A DNA stretch of 38,151 nt, from contig JAIPCF010000019.1 of assembly GCA_021738385.1 (NCBI GenBank), forward strand, positions 1-38,151, read 5' to 3'. This DNA comes from Sulfuritalea sp. (GTDB taxonomy: Bacteria; Pseudomonadota; Gammaproteobacteria; Burkholderiales; Rhodocyclaceae). Made by a program: the position numbers and the translations under genes. Positions 31,494 through 38,151 of this stretch are shown here, in pieces. Position 1 is the first letter of the stretch. The number at the start of each line of letters is the position of its first letter. Below the pieces are notes generated by a model that was not told the DNA's origin, ran no database searches, and saw only the letters and a list, made by a program, of their open reading frames with translations.

Positions 31494-33167
31494 TCACGCA
31501 GCGCTGACGGCTTCCTTCTCTTGCAGGGCGCGCCACATGACTTTTCCGGTGGCCGACTTGGGCAGGGTTTCAGCAAACTCGACAATACGCGGGGACTTGT
31601 AGGCGGCCATATTCTGATGCGCCCAGTCGATGATGTCCTGCTCGCTGACCTTTCCGCGCTGTGCCTCCTTGATGACGACAATGGCCTTTACCGTTTCACC
31701 GCGATGCGAGTCTTTGGAACCAATGACACAGGCTTCCTGGATCGCCGGGTGCTGGTACATCAGCGATTCGACTTCGGCGGGCCAGACCTTGAAGCCGGAG
31801 GCATTGATCATGCGCTTGAGACGATCGACCATGAAGAAATAGCCGTCCTCGTCGACGCGGCCGAGATCGCCGGTACGGAACCAGCGTTTGCTCTCGATCT
31901 CGATAAATGCATTGCGGGTGGCTTCGGGATTGTTCCAGTAGCCGAGAAAGACCTGCGGACCGCGAGTAAGTATTTCGCCGACTTCGCCCACCGGCATTTC
32001 CTTGAAGGTATTCGGATCGACGACCATCGATTCGGTATCGGCAATCGGTATTCCCAGGCACTGCTTCTTGGCCCGGTCCGGCGGATTGATGTGGGAGGGT
32101 GCGATGGTCTCCGACAAGCCGTAGCCCTCGACATAGGTGATGCCCATGTCGAGCAATTTTTGCGCGATTGCCTCCGGCATCGCGGCGCCGCCGCCGCTCA
32201 TGCGCGTAATCGTCGAAAGATCGTATTCGCCGATCTTCGGATTCATCAGAAAATCGATAATCATGGTCGGAATGGCCGTCCATGAGGTGACGCCGTAGCG
32301 TTCTATGCACTGCGCCGCGGCTTCGCGATCCCAGCGCGGCAGCAAAACTACGGTAGCGCCTACCTGCAGCGGCCCGCTCATGCTGCCCTGCATTCCAGTG
32401 ACATGGAAGAACGGCAATACCGCCATATAAACCGCATCCTGCTGGATGCCGAACCACTGATAGCCGGCCATCAGGGTATGCATTGCCGTCCGATGGCTAT
32501 GCATGCAACCCTTGGGTTGTCCTGTGGTCCCCGAGGTATAGGGCATCACGCACAGGTCGTCGGGCCCGACAGAAATCGGGCCGGGGCGCTGATTCTGCGC
32601 AAGCATGTCGGACCACAGCGTGACGCCGGAGTCATCGATGGCCTGCCGTGGCGCCTTGACGAAGTCCGGTACCTTGAGATCGGTCTCTGTCTTGAGGTAG
32701 TCGCTGTAGGCGGCAACGATGATCCTCTGCAGCCCATTGTCCTCGGCGCTTCCCAGCAGAGGTTTCATCTGCGGGTAGATGTCCTGCGCGACGATTGCTA
32801 CGGCGGCGCCGCTGTCCTTGACGTAATGTCGCAATTCCGTGGTCATGTTCATCGGATTGACCGGGACGACCACGGCATTGGCCCGCAGGATGGCGTAATA
32901 GGCCAGCACGAATTGCGGGCTGTTCTGCATGTAGAGCAACACGCGGTCGCCCTTTTTCACACCACACTGCTGCTCAAGATAACCGGCTATGCGTTCTGCC
33001 TCGTCCTTGAACTCGGCGAAGCTGATCTTCGTGTCGTAGAACACCAGATACGGCTTGTTGGGATAGCGCCGTGCCGACACCTCGACGTTGTAGAACAGAT
33101 CGGTTTCCGGAACGCTCAGGTGACGCGGCAGATCCGCGGGCCAGAAGGCGAAATGACGGTCGGACAT
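31494..33167 (-). CDS. Acyl-CoA synthetase (AMP-forming), medium/long-chain type
   Basis: ANL-superfamily ligase of 557 residues that activates a carboxylic acid to its CoA thioester with ATP. The P-loop YTSGTTGQPKG, the A5 motif GYGLSET, the A7 motif WFRTGDLG and the hinge region ASGFKVWPAEVE are intact. KSATGKVMWRAL near the C terminus carries the catalytic lysine. The ATG at 33167 has AAAGGAAA upstream and is preferred over an in-frame start seven codons earlier. It is last in the catabolic run. Repeat copy 1 lies just upstream of its ribosome site. The substrate cannot be read from the sequence. Confidence 0.93.
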   Translation of the reverse strand: MSDRHFAFWPADLPRHLSVPETDLFYNVEVSARRYPNKPYLVFYDTKISFAEFKDEAERIAGYLEQQCGVKKGDRVLLYMQNSPQFVLAYYAILRANAVVVPVNPMNMTTELRHYVKDSGAAVAIVAQDIYPQMKPLLGSAEDNGLQRIIVAAYSDYLKTETDLKVPDFVKAPRQAIDDSGVTLWSDMLAQNQRPGPISVGPDDLCVMPYTSGTTGQPKGCMHSHRTAMHTLMAGYQWFGIQQDAVYMAVLPFFHVTGMQGSMSGPLQVGATVVLLPRWDREAAAQCIERYGVTSWTAIPTMIIDFLMNPKIGEYDLSTITRMSGGGAAMPEAIAQKLLDMGITYVEGYGLSETIAPSHINPPDRAKKQCLGIPIADTESMVVDPNTFKEMPVGEVGEILTRGPQVFLGYWNNPEATRNAFIEIESKRWFRTGDLGRVDEDGYFFMVDRLKRMINASGFKVWPAEVESLMYQHPAIQEACVIGSKDSHRGETVKAIVVIKEAQRGKVSEQDIIDWAHQNMAAYKSPRIVEFAETLPKSATGKVMWRALQEKEAVSAA

Positions 33168-33191
33168 GTGTTTCCTTTCGTATAACAAGCT

Positions 33192-33287
33192 TTACCACGG
33201 CGACACGGCGACACGGCGACACTGCGAACCCCTTGCATCGAGTTCAATCCTTTGCTTTTCGCCGTGTCGCCGTGTCCGCCGTGGTAA
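33192..33287. repeat. Palindromic repeat, copy 1
   Basis: A 96-bp element between the ligase and the acyl-CoA dehydrogenase. It begins TTACCACGGCGACACGGCGA and ends with the near reverse complement, finishing GCCGTGGTAA. The arms are built from the 8-bp unit CGGCGACA in tandem (three copies in the left arm). The central 30 bases or so are unique. It would form a long hairpin. Confidence 0.88.
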
Positions 33288-33304
33288 CGATTTAACGGTC
33301 TTTC

Positions 33305-34528
33305 TTACTTGCCCAGGTAGCGCCCGAGTTCCTGTTTGGCGATGGCATTGCGATGGACTTCGTCCGGGCCGTCGGCAAAGCGCAGGGTGCGCGCCTGGGC
33401 ATAGGCGGCAGCGAGCGGGAAGTCGTCGGAGACGCCGGCACCTCCATGCACCTGCATGGCCCAGTCGATCACCTGCAGCGCCATGTTGGGCGCGGCCACC
33501 TTGATCATGGCGATTTCCTGCTTGGCCACCTTGTTGCCGGCGGTGTCCATCTTCCATGCGGCATTCAGCGTCAGGAAGCGGGCCTGGTCGATCATGATGC
33601 GGGCTTCGGCGATGCGCTCGCGCGTGACGCCCTGGTCGGCGATCGGCTTGTGGAAGGCCACACGCTTGAGGGCGCGTTTGCACATCAATTCCAGTGCGCG
33701 TTCGGCCAGGCCGATCAGACGCATGCAGTGATGGATGCGGCCGGGGCCGAGGCGACCCTGGGCGATTTCAAAGCCGCGGCCTTCACCAAGCAGGATGTTC
33801 GAGACGGGAACCCGTACATCCTTGAAATCGACTTCGCCATGGCCATGCGGTGCGTGATCGTAGCCGAACACGCTCAGCGCACGTACGCGCGTGACACCCG
33901 GGGTGTCCATCGGCACCAGGATCATCGACTGCTGGTTGTGCCGGCTCGGATTGTCCGGGTCCGTCTTGCCCATGAAGATCAGAATCTTGCAACGCGGATC
34001 CGGCGCGCCCGAGGTCCACCACTTGCGGCCGTTGATGACGTATTCGTCTCCATCGCGCACGATACGAGCTTCGATGTTGGTCGCATCGGACGAGGCGACG
34101 GCGGGTTCGGTCATGGCGAAAGCCGAGCGAATTTTTCCTTCCAGCAACGGCATCAGCCATTCGTTGCGCTGGGCGTCGTTGCCGTAGCGCTCGATGGTTT
34201 CCATGTTGCCGGTGTCGGGCGCGGAACAGTTAAAGGCTTCCGGCGCGATATGCGAGCGACCCATGATTTCGCACAAGGGTGCGTATTCCAGATTGGTCAG
34301 CCCCGCGCCGCGTTCCGACTGCGGCAGAAACAGGTTCCACAGGCCCGCGGCACGGGCCTTGTCCTTGAGCTGTTCCATGACCACGGTCGGCACCCAGGGG
34401 TTGCCTTTGGCCCGATTGGCCTCGACCTCGGCGTGAAAGGCGTCCTCGTTCGGGTAAATGTGCTCGTCCATGAAGGCATTCAGACGCTTCTGTAAATCCT
34501 TGACCTTGGGCGTGTAATCGAAATCCAT
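33305..34528 (-). CDS. Acyl-CoA dehydrogenase, ACAD10/11 type
   Basis: FAD-dependent acyl-CoA dehydrogenase of 407 residues. [16 protein letters not shown] and [17 protein letters not shown] are the FAD/substrate motifs, and [17 protein letters not shown] and [16 protein letters not shown] follow. Near the end, [10 protein letters not shown] has Asp386 at the place where medium-chain enzymes carry the catalytic Glu of YEGT; DGPDEVH is how I recall the ACAD10/11 group. The ATG at 34528 with GAGGA upstream is preferred over an in-frame start 26 codons earlier that would run into repeat copy 2. The neighbouring APH kinase corresponds to the N-terminal half of ACAD10/11. Confidence 0.93.
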
Positions 34529-34572
34529 GATGTGTCCTCGTTTGTTGTTCAGTCTCTTATGATTCAAAACTA

Positions 34573-34657
34573 TTACCACAGCGACACAGCGGTACAGTGA
34601 AAACACAAATATGCATTTGAACTTGATCTTCGCCGTGCCGCTGTGTCGCCGTGGTAA
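34573..34657. repeat. Palindromic repeat, copy 2
   Basis: An 85-bp element between the APH kinase and the acyl-CoA dehydrogenase. It starts TTACCACAGCGACACAGCG and ends CTGTGTCGCCGTGGTAA. It has the same ends and 8-bp period as copies 1 and 3, with AG for GG changes in one arm. The centre is A/T-rich. Confidence 0.86.
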
Positions 34658-34669
34658 ATGCTTGCCTGC

Positions 34670-35737
34670 TCAGTTGCTTGCCAGAAGACGTTCGACCTGA
34701 CGCCAGGCTTCTTCGGCCAGTGGTCGGGTGCGCTTGCCGGTTTCGATGGCTTCGGTGCTCGAGGCGTTGCCTTGCAGGGCGCGCGCCATGATGCCTTGCA
34801 GAATTCCGGCCAGACGGAACATGTTGAAGGCCATGTAGTACTCCCACTCCAGCGGCGGGATCGGCGAGCGTCCGGTTCGCTGGCAATAGGCGGCGACGTG
34901 GTCGGCTTCCGAAGGAATGCCCAGGGCCTTGAGATCATGGCCGGCCAGTCCGCGAAACTGTCCGGGCGAAAGGCGCCAGGTCATGCAGTGATAGGCGAAA
35001 TCGGCAAGCGGGTGTCCCAGGGTCGACAGCTCCCAGTCAAGCACGGCGAGGATGCGCGGCTCGGTGGGATGGAACACTGTGTTGTCGAGTCGAAAGTCGC
35101 CATGCACGATGCTGGTTTCGTCGCCGGGCGGAATATTCTGCGGCAGCCATTCGATCAGCTTGTCCATGGCCTCGATCTTTTCGGTTTCCGAGGCGCGGTA
35201 CTGCTTGCTCCAGCGCGCCACCTGACGCTCCAGATACTTGTCCGGCTTGCCATAGTCACCCAGACCGACTGCCTGATAGTCCACCTTGTGCAGGGCGGCG
35301 ATGACCCGATTCATTTCATTGAACGTGGCCGTGCGTTCGGCAGGACTCATGTCGGGAAGCGATGGATCCCACATGATGCGACCATCGACGCAATCCATGA
35401 TGTAGAACATCGTGCCGATGACGCTGTCGTCCTCGCACAGCGCCCAGGTTTTCGCTACGGGAACATCGGTAGCGGCCAGTGCCGAGATGACCTTGTATTC
35501 GCGATCCACAGCGTGGGCGCTGGGCAACAGCTTGCCGGGCGGTTTGCGCCGCAGTACATACTTGCGCCGGGTATCGCGCAGCAGAAACGTCGGGTTGGAT
35601 TGTCCGCCCTTGAACTTCTCCGCTAGCAGCGGCCCGGAAAAGCCTTCGACGTGCGCCGCCATCCATTCCGCCAGACGCTGGGTATCGAAAGCGTCCTGCG
35701 CGGTAATGGGGCGCGTGCCGGTGAATTTGTCCGTCAT
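34670..35737 (-). CDS. APH-family phosphotransferase (acyl-CoA hydroxyl kinase candidate)
   Basis: Aminoglycoside-phosphotransferase-fold kinase of 355 residues. The catalytic loop VHGDFRLDN has Asp214 and Asn219, and the metal-binding motif LDWE follows with Asp234. FKGGQSNPTFLL is the nucleotide-binding loop and YVLRRKPPG holds the likely ATP lysine. The subfamily is that of ACAD10/11 N-terminal domains and LvaA, which phosphorylate the 4-hydroxyl of acyl-CoAs, not antibiotic-resistance enzymes. It overlaps the MDR reductase upstream by four bases (ATGA) and precedes the acyl-CoA dehydrogenase, from which it is separated by repeat copy 2. Confidence 0.92.
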   Translation of the reverse strand: MTDKFTGTRPITAQDAFDTQRLAEWMAAHVEGFSGPLLAEKFKGGQSNPTFLLRDTRRKYVLRRKPPGKLLPSAHAVDREYKVISALAATDVPVAKTWALCEDDSVIGTMFYIMDCVDGRIMWDPSLPDMSPAERTATFNEMNRVIAALHKVDYQAVGLGDYGKPDKYLERQVARWSKQYRASETEKIEAMDKLIEWLPQNIPPGDETSIVHGDFRLDNTVFHPTEPRILAVLDWELSTLGHPLADFAYHCMTWRLSPGQFRGLAGHDLKALGIPSEADHVAAYCQRTGRSPIPPLEWEYYMAFNMFRLAGILQGIMARALQGNASSTEAIETGKRTRPLAEEAWRQVERLLASN

Positions 35738-36738
35738 AGTTTTACCAGTTGCTTGCCGAAATTGCCGCCCTTCAACAAGCTGATGAAAGCAGCAGGTGCC
35801 GCGGCAAGTCCATCAGCAACCGTTTCGCGATACTTGATGCGGCCGGCAGCGACATGGCCGGCGAGTTCCTTGAGTGCCGGCGGCCAGCGACTGAGGTCGT
35901 CGGAGACGATGAAGCCTTGCATCCTGATGCGATTCACCAGTACCGATCCGATGTTCACCATCGGGTACGGTGCCGAGTTGTATTGCGAGATCAGCCCGCA
36001 AACCGCGATGCGCGAAAAGGCATTCATGCGGCCAAGCAGGGTATCGAAAATTTCGCCGCCGACGTTTTCAAACAGGCAGTCAATCCCCTTGGGTGTCGCC
36101 GCCTTGAGGTCGCCGCGCAGATTGCCGGCCTTGTAGTCGATGCAGGCATCGAAGCCAAGTTCGTCGACCACATAGCGGCATTTCTCTGCACCACCGGCGA
36201 TGCCCACTGCACGCGCGCCGTGAATCTTCGCCAGTTGCCCCACCACACTACCCACCGCACCGGATGCCGAGGTGACCACCACGGTTTCGCCGGCCTTCGG
36301 TGCGCAAATGTCCATCAGGCCGACCCAGGCGGTGACACCGGGCATGCCGAGCGCCCCGAGATAGGCCGACAGAGGCACGGCGCTGGCATCGACTTTCTGC
36401 AAAGCGCTGCCGTCGGCGACGGCCCAGGTTTGCCAGCCCAACGCGCCGACCACGGTATCGCCGACCGCAAATTTTGGGTGATTGGATTTGATGACTTCAC
36501 CGGCTGTGCCGCCCACCATGACTTCGTTGATCTCGACCGACTTCGCGTAGGACTTGGCATCCGACATTCGACCGCGCATGTAGGGGTCGAGCGACAGCCA
36601 TCGGTTTCTGACCAACACCTGGTCCGGGCCGGGCTCGGGAATGTCGCATTCCTCAAGGCGGAAATTGCTTTCCTCTACCCAAGCGGTGGGGCGACTGGCG
36701 AGGACTATTTTCTGGTTCTTTTCCATCGGAATGTCCAT
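35734..36738 (-). CDS. NADP-dependent oxidoreductase, zinc-free MDR (CurA/PTGR type)
   Basis: Medium-chain reductase of 334 residues, of the group that includes leukotriene B4 dehydrogenase and CurA, which reduce the double bond of alpha,beta-unsaturated carbonyls with NADPH. LSLDPYMRGRMSDAKSY near the N terminus is typical. The Rossmann fold is VVVTSASGAVGSVVGQLAK, and FENVGGEIFDTLL follows. Zinc ligands of alcohol dehydrogenases are absent. Two ATGs are possible (36738, or 36726 at residue 5). It overlaps the APH kinase by four bases, so the two are coupled. It could reduce an enoyl intermediate of the same pathway. Confidence 0.92.
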   Translation of the reverse strand: MDIPMEKNQKIVLASRPTAWVEESNFRLEECDIPEPGPDQVLVRNRWLSLDPYMRGRMSDAKSYAKSVEINEVMVGGTAGEVIKSNHPKFAVGDTVVGALGWQTWAVADGSALQKVDASAVPLSAYLGALGMPGVTAWVGLMDICAPKAGETVVVTSASGAVGSVVGQLAKIHGARAVGIAGGAEKCRYVVDELGFDACIDYKAGNLRGDLKAATPKGIDCLFENVGGEIFDTLLGRMNAFSRIAVCGLISQYNSAPYPMVNIGSVLVNRIRMQGFIVSDDLSRWPPALKELAGHVAAGRIKYRETVADGLAAAPAAFISLLKGGNFGKQLVKL

Positions 36739-36783
36739 TGTTATCTAGCGTTGAATTAAAAGTCGGCGCTGGCTCGCTTTGCG

Positions 36784-36812
36784 CGCCTGGGATTCCGCTT
36801 CGCGGGCAGGCG
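36784..36812. other. Hairpin in the leader of the MDR reductase gene
   Basis: CGCCTG (36784-36789) pairs with CAGGCG (36807-36812) across a G/C-rich loop, in the 90 bases between the thioesterase and reductase genes. It lacks the sequence of the three large repeats. A decayed repeat or an mRNA structure are both possible. Confidence 0.4.
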
Positions 36813-36828
36813 ACGGCGATTGTCATGG

Positions 36829-37254
36829 TCAGGGGTCTTCTGCTTTGGCTTTGGCGACGCCTTCGCGGCGCAGTTTGAAGGTACCGAGTGACTTGGCGAC
36901 CAGCTCACCGCTCTCGTCAAATGCCTCGCCCTCGCAGAAGTGTAGCGAACTGCCACCGCGCAGCAGTTTTCCTTCAGCGACGATGCGGCCTTTCGCCGAG
37001 CGCAAAAAGCTGATCGACATATCGACCGTCATCACACCGCCGCCGTGTTCTTGCGAAGTGCGTGCAGCAACTGCCATGGCGACATCAAGCATGGTCATGA
37101 TGACGCCACCGTGCGAGACCTCGAAGCTGTTGAGCATTTCCGGTCGCAGTTCGAGCGAGATGCGCGAGCGTCCGCCCTCGGCCATCTCGGCCTTGACGCC
37201 GAGATGTTTGAGAAAGGGAACCTTGAGTCCGAAAAAATCCTGGCTGCTGGGCAT
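36829..37254 (-). CDS. PaaI-like hotdog-fold thioesterase
   Basis: A 141-residue hotdog protein likely to hydrolyse acyl-CoA thioesters. The family segment MLNSFEVSHGGVIMTMLDVAMAVAA (about 40-64, given in part) contains the HGG turn and the Asp at the start of the long helix. VDMSISFLRSAKGRIVAEGKL is the following strand region. It may release CoA from dead-end intermediates of the pathway. It begins ten bases after the SDR stop, so these are one transcript. Confidence 0.9.
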   Translation of the reverse strand: MPSSQDFFGLKVPFLKHLGVKAEMAEGGRSRISLELRPEMLNSFEVSHGGVIMTMLDVAMAVAARTSQEHGGGVMTVDMSISFLRSAKGRIVAEGKLLRGGSSLHFCEGEAFDESGELVAKSLGTFKLRREGVAKAKAEDP

Positions 37255-37264
37255 TGCGTCGATA

Positions 37265-38038
37265 TCAGAAGCTCAAACTGCCACCATCCACCGGCAAGGC
37301 ATGACCCGTAATGTGGCGTCCGGCATCAGAGGCGAGCAACACGACAGTACCCTTGAGATCCTCGTCGCCGCCAACGCGTCCCAGGGCGGTGCCCGAGATG
37401 ATCCGGTCGCCGAGTTTTTCCATGATGCCGCTGGCCATTTTTGAGGGAAAGAAGCCCGGGCAGATGGCGTTGACGTTGATGTTGTACTTGCCCCATTCGG
37501 CCGCCAGTGCGCGCACGAAATTCACGTCGGCGCCCTTGCTGGTGTTGTAGGCAATGGTTTGCATGTCCGGCGGATTGCCGCGCAAGCCGGCAATCGAGGC
37601 GGTGACAATGACCTTGCCCGACTTTTGCGGAATGAAGGCACGCTTGCCGACTTCGCGAGTCAGAAAGAACATGCCGTTGACATTGAGATTGATGACCTTC
37701 ATCCAGGCTGCATCGGGAAAGTCTTCAGCGGGTGCGCCCCATGTGGCGCCGGCATTGTTCACCAGAATGTCTATCTTGCCGTATTGATCGAGAACAGCGC
37801 TGACAAGGGCGGGGATCTGGTCGAATTTCGACAGATCGTTGGTAATCGTCAGCACCTCGACGCCCTGCTTTTCAAGGTGAGCTTTCGCCTCCGCCAGTTC
37901 GTCGGCTTTGCGCGCGGTGATAACGAGCTTGGCACCCATCTCACCGAGAGCCTCGGCCATCTGCAAGCCCAGCCCGCGCGAGCCGCCCGTGATGATGGCA
38001 ACCTTGCCGGTGAGATCGAATAGTTGTTTGACGCTCAT
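37265..38038 (-). CDS. Short-chain dehydrogenase/reductase
   Basis: Classical SDR of 257 residues. The cofactor motif TGGSRGLG is at 17-24, NNAG at 94-97, and the catalytic Ser148, Tyr164 and Lys168 (YNTSK) are intact. The end GHALPVDGGSLSF is typical. An Arg in place of an acidic residue after the second strand (TARKADEL) suggests NADPH rather than NADH. It is the first gene of the catabolic run, with AAAGGA before the ATG and repeat copy 3 just upstream. In the Pseudomonas lva operon an SDR (LvaD) reduces the 4-oxo group; the same role here is a hypothesis. Confidence 0.94.
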   Translation of the reverse strand: MSVKQLFDLTGKVAIITGGSRGLGLQMAEALGEMGAKLVITARKADELAEAKAHLEKQGVEVLTITNDLSKFDQIPALVSAVLDQYGKIDILVNNAGATWGAPAEDFPDAAWMKVINLNVNGMFFLTREVGKRAFIPQKSGKVIVTASIAGLRGNPPDMQTIAYNTSKGADVNFVRALAAEWGKYNINVNAICPGFFPSKMASGIMEKLGDRIISGTALGRVGGDEDLKGTVVLLASDAGRHITGHALPVDGGSLSF

Positions 38039-38059
38039 GGAAATCCTTTCATAGATCGT

Positions 38060-38143
38060 TTACCACGGCGACACGGCGGGCACGGCGAATTCAAACAAAT
38101 TTCTCGCAAGGTTTTCGCCGTGTCACCGTGTCGCCGTGGTTAA
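38060..38143. repeat. Palindromic repeat, copy 3
   Basis: An 84-bp element upstream of the SDR gene. It begins TTACCACGGCGACACGGCG and ends CGTGTCGCCGTGGTTAA, with one extra T in the right end. It has the same ends and 8-bp period as copies 1 and 2. The centre is A/T-rich and unlike the others. Confidence 0.86.
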
Positions 38144-38151
38144 AGTTTTTT

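Follow-up and report, generated by a model that had tools for sequence, protein, structure and literature searches.

Palindromic repeats between operon genes of Sulfuritalea share their arms with a predicted Cas4-like nuclease gene: a probable mobile element family

Introduction

Miniature inverted-repeat transposable elements (MITEs; e.g., ERIC and Correia-type elements) are small, gene-less sequences with inverted ends. Free-standing homing endonucleases of the PD-(D/E)XK type are small nuclease genes that may spread themselves, and integrons combine attC sites, defined by a GTTRRRY core, with an integrase. Repeats that look like those described here are common in environmental genomes. The literature on repetitive extragenic palindromic (REP) sequences (PMC3733652, PMC8266576) describes other families than these. 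This report concerns three palindromes of 84–96 bp in a 38,151-nucleotide stretch of DNA from Sulfuritalea sp. (GenBank assembly GCA_021738385.1, contig JAIPCF010000019.1, positions 1 to 38,151; hereafter the window), each located in a stop-to-start gap of one operon. An earlier sequence-only reading of the window had proposed either a REP- or MITE-like family that may be mobilized in trans or hairpins that tune mRNA stability between operon genes. The palindromes are interpreted here as non-autonomous, gene-less members of a family of mobile elements that encodes a Cas4-like nuclease of its own, GxxExxY, a reading to which we give a probability of about 0.68.

The GxxExxY gene and its inverted arms in the genus

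Arms were counted with an exact pattern in which three units follow one another at intervals of 8 or 9 bp, the reversed pattern serving as the control. In one congeneric genome (G007), two arms lying about 400 bp from each other bracket an open frame. Its score is 151 bits with the TIGR04256 GxxExxY model and with PF13366 alike; three such proteins score 136–151 bits, and the curated cut-offs are 22 and 35. PF13366 has 19 matches, corresponding to 18 loci (one broken gene gives two matches), in 13 of the 31 genomes of the genus. Inverted arms are present at the gene ends in all 16 loci that are readable on both sides (those of L153 and L156 were scored by eye, their automatic inverted-match scores being only 9.5 and 12); at L147 and L148 the contig ends just past the gene, and the left arm alone is visible.

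The units of these arms are of the types CACAGAG, CACGGAG, CACGGCG, CGCAGAG, CACCAAG, and CGCAGAT. Three loci (L155, L157, and L161) enclose GxxExxY in CGCAGATTT-type arms, which places the CGCAGATTT repeat type in the same superfamily. The genome from which the window comes (G000; 3.34 Mb in 162 contigs, 82% complete) carries one GxxExxY gene, at contig C79 (L159), whose arms are built of CGGCG units, as are those of the window copies; judged from its sequence, this locus is a candidate autonomous relative with window-type ends.

Exact matches of three unit types number 226 in the genus and include 53 inverted pairs of 65–167 bp and nine of more than 180 bp. Seven of these nine hold GxxExxY or a remnant, one holds the nested palindrome of G006, and one (contig C64 of G014) consists of two ordinary palindromes; no gene other than GxxExxY was found between exact arms of the three types in the genus. 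The predominance of gene-less over gene-bearing pairs (53 short vs. 7) would suit a different view, in which GxxExxY is a passenger or homing-type gene lodged in palindromes that something else mobilizes or that host repair makes. We consider this unlikely, since no other gene was found between exact arms of the three types, and further evidence on both sides is given below. G016 contains three broken copies of the gene (L158/L164, L162, and L163), two of them broken by internal deletion, and their arms persist, which is a possible route to gene-less palindromes. The upstream arm is open in frame over at least half its length in 40 of 59 GxxExxY loci, so predicted N-termini of the protein can start with arm-encoded residues.

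A full-length element would consist of an arm, the GxxExxY gene, and an inverted arm. Each arm is composed of two to four tandem 7-bp units that are set mostly 8–9 bp apart and preceded by an end reading ACC or TCC, and the unit types are CACGGCG, CACAGAG, CGCAGAG, CACCAAG, CGCAGAT, and others.

Arms around GxxExxY genes beyond the genus

With the genus proteins as queries, at least 575 relatives were found; the best 80 loci by similarity, from named genomes, were taken, and 78 had enough flank on both sides. Each was scored for how well the 200 nt upstream match the 220 nt downstream locally and in inverted orientation, with 400 shifted positions in the same loci as the control. The score is at least 16 in 49 of the 78 loci (0 of 400 shifted positions) and at least 14 in 59 (2 of 400). 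Of these 49 and 59 loci, 45 and 53, respectively, have unit arms in the expected orientation; the remaining matches have units facing the other way (two and three, respectively) or no units (two and three). The 45 unit-armed loci span 12 phyla, including one archaeal locus, and the 53 span 14. At the lower threshold, the phyla with unit arms include Pseudomonadota (all 12 loci), Planctomycetota (9/10), Chloroflexota (8/10), Acidobacteriota (7/10), Bacteroidota (6/15), and the archaeal Methanobacteriota (1/2). When the upstream flank of one locus is paired with the downstream flank of another, 9% of pairings score at least 16 because the units are alike everywhere; in 30 of the 78 loci, the highest-scoring of the 78 candidates is the partner arm of the same gene. 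A tblastn search with one query each located GxxExxY on 7 of 72,556 plasmids and on 0 of 50,697 phages, and no vehicle was found among them.

Unit types of gene arms and of dispersed palindromes

Within the genus, gene arms and dispersed arms agree in unit type (counts include the genes' own arms). CGCAGAG arms are found in G002 (7), G023 (42), G025 (8), and G016 (33), the four species with a CGCAGAG-armed GxxExxY gene (broken in G016); G003 has one such arm and the other 26 genomes none. CACGGCG arms are found in the three species with a gene of that type, G000 (24), G014 (43), and G016 (16; a remnant), with two more in G006, one in G003, and none in 26 genomes. CACCAAG arms number 46 in G027, the one species with such a gene, three in G006, and zero in 29 genomes. 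One layout is common to the gene-bearing element of G027 and the 14 palindromes read there: at most four units, separated by spacers of about 1, 2, and 3 bases. Once each gene's own arms are removed, the median number of further arms is 37 in congeners with the gene and 0.5 in those without it (p = 0.001, kinship not corrected). This match of units within the genus argues against GxxExxY as a passenger.

A cross-phylum set of 50 of the 78 genomes was picked for a clear GxxExxY arm type. Arrays of units are present in 47 of the 50 and exceed two in 41, and the reversed control gives 0 in all 50. The 22 genomes with CGC-type gene arms contain 370 CGC and 175 CAC arms, and the 28 with CAC-type gene arms contain 780 CAC and 80 CGC arms (p = 4e-5, or 0.005 after subtraction of each gene's own two arms).

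Abundance, form, and placement of the palindromes

G000 contains 88 three-unit arms, compared with 0 in the reversed control, and the number of arms per genome ranges from 0 to 162 among the 31 congeneric genomes. A looser pattern (280 matches in G000 vs. 310 for its reversed control) served solely to pick regions for inspection. Subfamilies with CGGCG, CGGAG, and CAGAG units can be distinguished by eye in about 145 kb around matches (40 loci), and some CAGAG-unit copies of 131–142 bp have similar centers (by eye). The palindromes are 63–143 bp long and symmetric, with ends of the ACC...GGT type on both sides; like MITEs, they have inverted ends, are short, and lack coding capacity. Nesting occurs: a CAGAG/CGGAG palindrome lies within a CGGCG palindrome in G000 (L043), and a CGCAGAT-type palindrome lies within a CGGCG palindrome in G006 (L275).

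Among 29 palindromes placed in G000, 18 lie between co-directional genes, one between divergent and five between convergent genes, and five overlap a predicted frame. This placement, based on open reading frames, is crude and applies to G000 only, as frames in G023 and G027 cross the units (19 of 23 scored as overlap). The preference for co-directional genes, together with the intercistronic position of every window copy, is what immobile hairpins selected for mRNA stability or attenuation in operons would show. The spread from 0 to 162 arms among congeners and the nested copies do not fit such hairpins, which we hold to be very unlikely.

Insertion sites and element ends

The trpE–trpG junction is readable in 21 of 26 loci, with a short gap in 16, arms with the gene or a remnant in three, and another repeat in two. 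Arms enclose a gene in G007 and G003 and an internally deleted gene in G016. A bare family palindrome was found at this junction in none of the 18 gene-lacking species read (0/18), which speaks against homing of the gene into an existing palindrome; gene and arms arrive there together, a further point against the passenger alternative. The G007 and G003 proteins are 53% alike, whereas the trpG DNA is 83–92% alike, suggesting more than one insertion. The other repeat at this junction, in G027 (L250) and G010 (L252), is an unrelated sequence, CCCCCACGCTCACT...GGGGGC.

At the site of window copy 1, four of the five congeners read have an orthologous gap of 17–30 nt, and the fifth holds another repeat. 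At the site of copy 2, the 15 other congeners read have a gap of 28–41 nt (four) or a palindrome of some kind (11); two of the latter (G012 and G002) belong to the superfamily with other units, and nine belong to unrelated families (by eye). Each of these two palindromes looks like the arms of the GxxExxY gene in the same genome (L153 and L161). Across the slot at 34529–34669 and its orthologous gaps (L097–L115), six palindrome sequence types are seen, three of this superfamily (by eye). The slot is either a reusable landing slot or a place where some hairpin is selected. The 11 occupied sites in 15 relatives count in favor of hairpins maintained for the mRNA; the empty sites count against them, as does the lack of any predicted intrinsic terminator on the operon strand at the copies (two are predicted in 33100–38151 vs. 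5.2 expected, and copy 3's is antisense).

The sequence-only reading had named a lack of further copies in the genome, and of empty sites in relatives, as arguments against a mobile family. With the many arms of G000 and the short gaps at the copy 1, copy 2, and trpE–trpG sites, both arguments fall away. Its MITE-like, trans-mobilized family gains support from the number of copies, the empty orthologous sites, the nesting, and a same-armed candidate autonomous partner.

Outside the units, before the ACC, a weak inverted motif, GAAAAxCxTTC, is present. Near-identical 135-bp copies occupy 10 sites read in G021 and have extended ends (CCTAAATTCCTC and GAGGTTTTAAGG); a 4-bp direct repeat borders four of the six forward copies with both flanks, and it is a lead only, as it would not reach significance in a blind scan over offsets. 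These G021 copies also bear on the idea that template switching during replication turns tandem short repeats into palindromes as a by-product. Arms do mirror each other within a copy, and the inter-unit spacers of G027 are partly mirrored (by eye), as template switching would have it. The same process leaves the GxxExxY gene, the unit types shared across a genome, and the near-identical G021 copies unexplained, and we regard it as highly unlikely.

The GxxExxY protein

GxxExxY is a single-domain protein of 125 residues in a PD-(D/E)XK nuclease family (PF13366/TIGR04256). An AlphaFold2 model of one homologue (L165; alignment of 74 rows) has a predicted local distance difference test score of 94.6. 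Its best PDB neighbors by Foldseek, none with E ≤ 0.001, are SSO0001 (4ic1), a Cas4 protein, LHK-Exo, lambda exonuclease, and AddAB, with 3syy also among the neighbors. The homing endonuclease domain I-Bth0305I is also among the fold neighbors, in keeping with a homing-type passenger. Across 74 proteins, D68, K80, E28, Y31, and Y96 are invariant, and E78, Q92, and H19 are conserved in at least 90%. Sequence and model together present a D...ExK site, a QxxxY motif, and a fold of the Cas4/lambda-exonuclease type. GxxExxY is accordingly predicted to be a PD-(D/E)XK nuclease of the Cas4/lambda-exonuclease type. The protein has no match in PADLOC, no relative in a PDB sequence search, and two weak matches in PHROGs.

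RAYT-type genes and a second dispersed repeat

G000 has two PF01797 genes of the type of the REP-associated tyrosine transposases (RAYTs), L094 and L095. Their presence and the intergenic position of the palindromes are compatible with REP/REPIN-like repeats moved by the genome's own RAYT-type transposases, as the sequence-only reading had considered. This origin is barely plausible: no three-unit arm flanks either gene (one loose two-unit match occurs in L095), and both adjoin a GTCGGCGC motif that resembles a different repeat, the other dispersed repeat of the window. REP sequences carry a GTAG/CGTC tag at one end of a 20–40 bp palindrome, unlike the symmetric copies of 63–143 bp with ACC...GGT ends. 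RAYT is not supported as the mobilizer.

The other dispersed repeat, missed in the sequence-only reading, lies at 36758–36823 (AAAAGTCGGCGCTGGC..., about 60 bp). It recurs at many places in G000 and congeners, with 87–95% identity among the matches listed, and may be the REP family of the PF01797 genes. Positions 1100–2700 of L095 contain tandem partial RAYT-like copies with a AAAGGGGTCAGCATCAC-like repeat between them (by eye).

The three window copies

Table 1. Palindromic elements of the window, their arms, and adjoining genes
Feature	Position	Strand	Setting	Pfam
Palindromic element copy 1 (CGGCG units)	33192..33287 (96 bp)	.	between acyl-CoA dehydrogenase stop and AMP-binding ligase start	
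Copy 1 left arm, tandem CACGGCGA units	33192..33227	+		
Copy 1 right arm, inverted	33258..33287	-		
Palindromic element copy 2	34573..34657 (85 bp)	.	between APH-family stop and acyl-CoA dehydrogenase start	
Copy 2 left arm	34573..34601	+		
Copy 2 right arm, inverted	34629..34657	-		
Palindromic element copy 3	38060..38143 (84 bp)	.	upstream of short-chain dehydrogenase start; 8 bases before window contig end	
Copy 3 left arm	38060..38089	+		
Copy 3 right arm, inverted	38114..38143	-		
AMP-binding (acyl-CoA ligase type) gene	31494..33167	-	downstream of copy 1	PF00501
Acyl-CoA dehydrogenase gene	33305..34528	-	between copies 1 and 2	PF00441/PF02770
APH-family phosphotransferase gene	34670..35737	-	upstream of copy 2	PF01636
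Short-chain dehydrogenase gene	37265..38038	-	downstream of copy 3	PF00106

The coordinates and sizes of the three palindromes (Table 1) are those first read, the centers are indeed unrelated, and the three-unit regular expression matches the window only inside the copies, in agreement with the earlier observation that the rest of the window carries none. Arms consist of three (once four) tandem CACGGCGA units or variants. The 8-bp internal period originally described applies to most unit steps; the step is 9 bp once in the right arm of copy 1 and once in the left arm of copy 3. The stem of copy 2 had been described as mismatched or G-T paired in places. It does contain G-T pairs, and its second unit reads CACAGCG on both sides, which means that some of the deviation from the consensus is mirrored. 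Folding is far stronger than in dinucleotide shuffles (z = -10.0, -9.4, and -8.3 for copies 1, 2, and 3; 0 of 200 shuffles equal any of them). Rfam has no match in the window.

On the operon (minus) strand, copies 1, 2, and 3 start 17, 12, and 7 nt, respectively, past the upstream gene's stop codon and end ahead of the start of the next gene. The stop upstream of copy 3 was read in contig C43, whose bases 1–139 are identical to window positions 38013–38151 (139 bases) and in which copy 3 is continued; beyond the overlap, C43 has a frame with a thiolase-like end (by eye). Contigs C31, C95, C101, C123, and C129 likewise end at or in a palindrome. Such contig ends, and the C43 overlap at copy 3, suggest that the elements break assemblies. 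Six adjoining genes were named by Pfam, a zinc-type oxidoreductase and a thioesterase completing the set in Table 1.

A proposed mode of spread and the objections to it

From these sequence comparisons, we infer movement of the family through enzyme action by GxxExxY. The nuclease would recognize the arms, either folded or double-stranded, cut at them, and start copying into intercistronic gaps. Gene-less palindromes would be mobilized in trans, and internal deletion of the gene would be a further origin for them. A hairpin between a stop codon and a ribosome site causes little damage, and this would account for the positions at which copies persist.

Several observations weigh against this interpretation. 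No transposition has been observed, and GxxExxY has no DNA-binding domain beside the nuclease; the top Foldseek match has E 1.2e-3 and a TM-score of 0.45. Arms occur without a PF13366 match in G021 (49 arms, 85% complete), G010 (18, 99% complete), G006 (11 plus 3), and G020 (11, 70% complete), and palindromes without the gene in G010 and G021 are what the passenger alternative would expect. In the wider set, correctly oriented unit arms with a score of at least 16 are missing from 33 of the 78 loci (29 score lower, two have no units, and two have reversed units). The cross-phylum unit match is weaker than that within the genus, and a majority table without the genes' own arms gives a Fisher p of 0.09. 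Target-site duplication is not general, the offset scan singling out the 135-bp family of G021 only. CAC/CGC type does not track the protein tree (15 changes vs. a shuffled mean of 14.6); tight recognition would predict that it did, and its independence also favors a passenger gene. The AAG/GAG feature does track the tree (8 changes vs. 11.1 shuffled, 0/300), and the 8/9 spacing does so weakly (5 vs. 7.4, 21/300); any reading of the arms by the protein would then leave some of the unit free to vary. The strongest objections are G010 and G021, in which palindromes occur with no gene detected, the fact that target duplication is not general, and the loose correspondence of the unit with the protein tree.

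It is an evenly balanced question whether the family represents a new class of prokaryotic mobile element, with unit-armed loci in 12 or more phyla (one locus being archaeal), whose movement depends on one Cas4-like PD-(D/E)XK nuclease that acts on long palindromes built from tandem 8/9-bp units. If so, the CACAGAGA, CACGAAGG, CGCAGAGG, CGCAAAGG, CACCAAGG, and CGCAGATTT repeat types of environmental genomes would be ends or gene-less copies of one superfamily.

Comparison with known systems

In print, as far as the accessible portions of the sources go, GxxExxY appears as a neighbor of a reverse transcriptase gene and as an entry in an algal virus gene table. No link between GxxExxY and repeats or mobility was found in a literature search that excluded most subscription papers and all preprints, so absence is unproven; a search by repeat letters, with the same coverage, found no paper on these repeats. 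As far as found, the link between repeats and GxxExxY is new, the repeats having had no assigned origin or partner gene in that literature. It gives the repeats an enzyme that already has a name, a full-length form, a rule for matching, and an assay. The gene itself is a clear member of TIGR04256/PF13366, a family named by motif only, for which that search found no connection to repeats or mobility; here it is repeat-linked.

Like free-standing PD-(D/E)XK homing endonucleases, the element has a small nuclease gene that may spread itself. It differs from them in that gene and arms insert together (at one site), many palindromes lack the gene, and several host sites are used rather than one intron, intein, or gene. 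The palindrome ends differ by eye from integron attC sites, for which no directed search was made. The resemblance to MITEs of the ERIC and Correia type lies in small, gene-less, intergenic copies with inverted ends that are likely moved in trans; unlike in MITEs, the parent is not a DDE insertion sequence, the palindrome is nearly full length, and putative target-site duplications are seen in one G021 family only. The REP/REPIN–RAYT system (REPtron) is likewise a two-part system, with many short intercistronic palindromes and a single-gene partner bearing the same repeats. Its partner is an HUH tyrosine transposase, whereas here it is a PD-(D/E)XK nuclease, with the gene inside the palindrome, arms of tandem 8/9-bp units, and no GTAG/CGTC tag. 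If the nuclease moves the palindromes, the core chemistry of transposition here would be of none of the DDE, HUH, serine, or tyrosine types.

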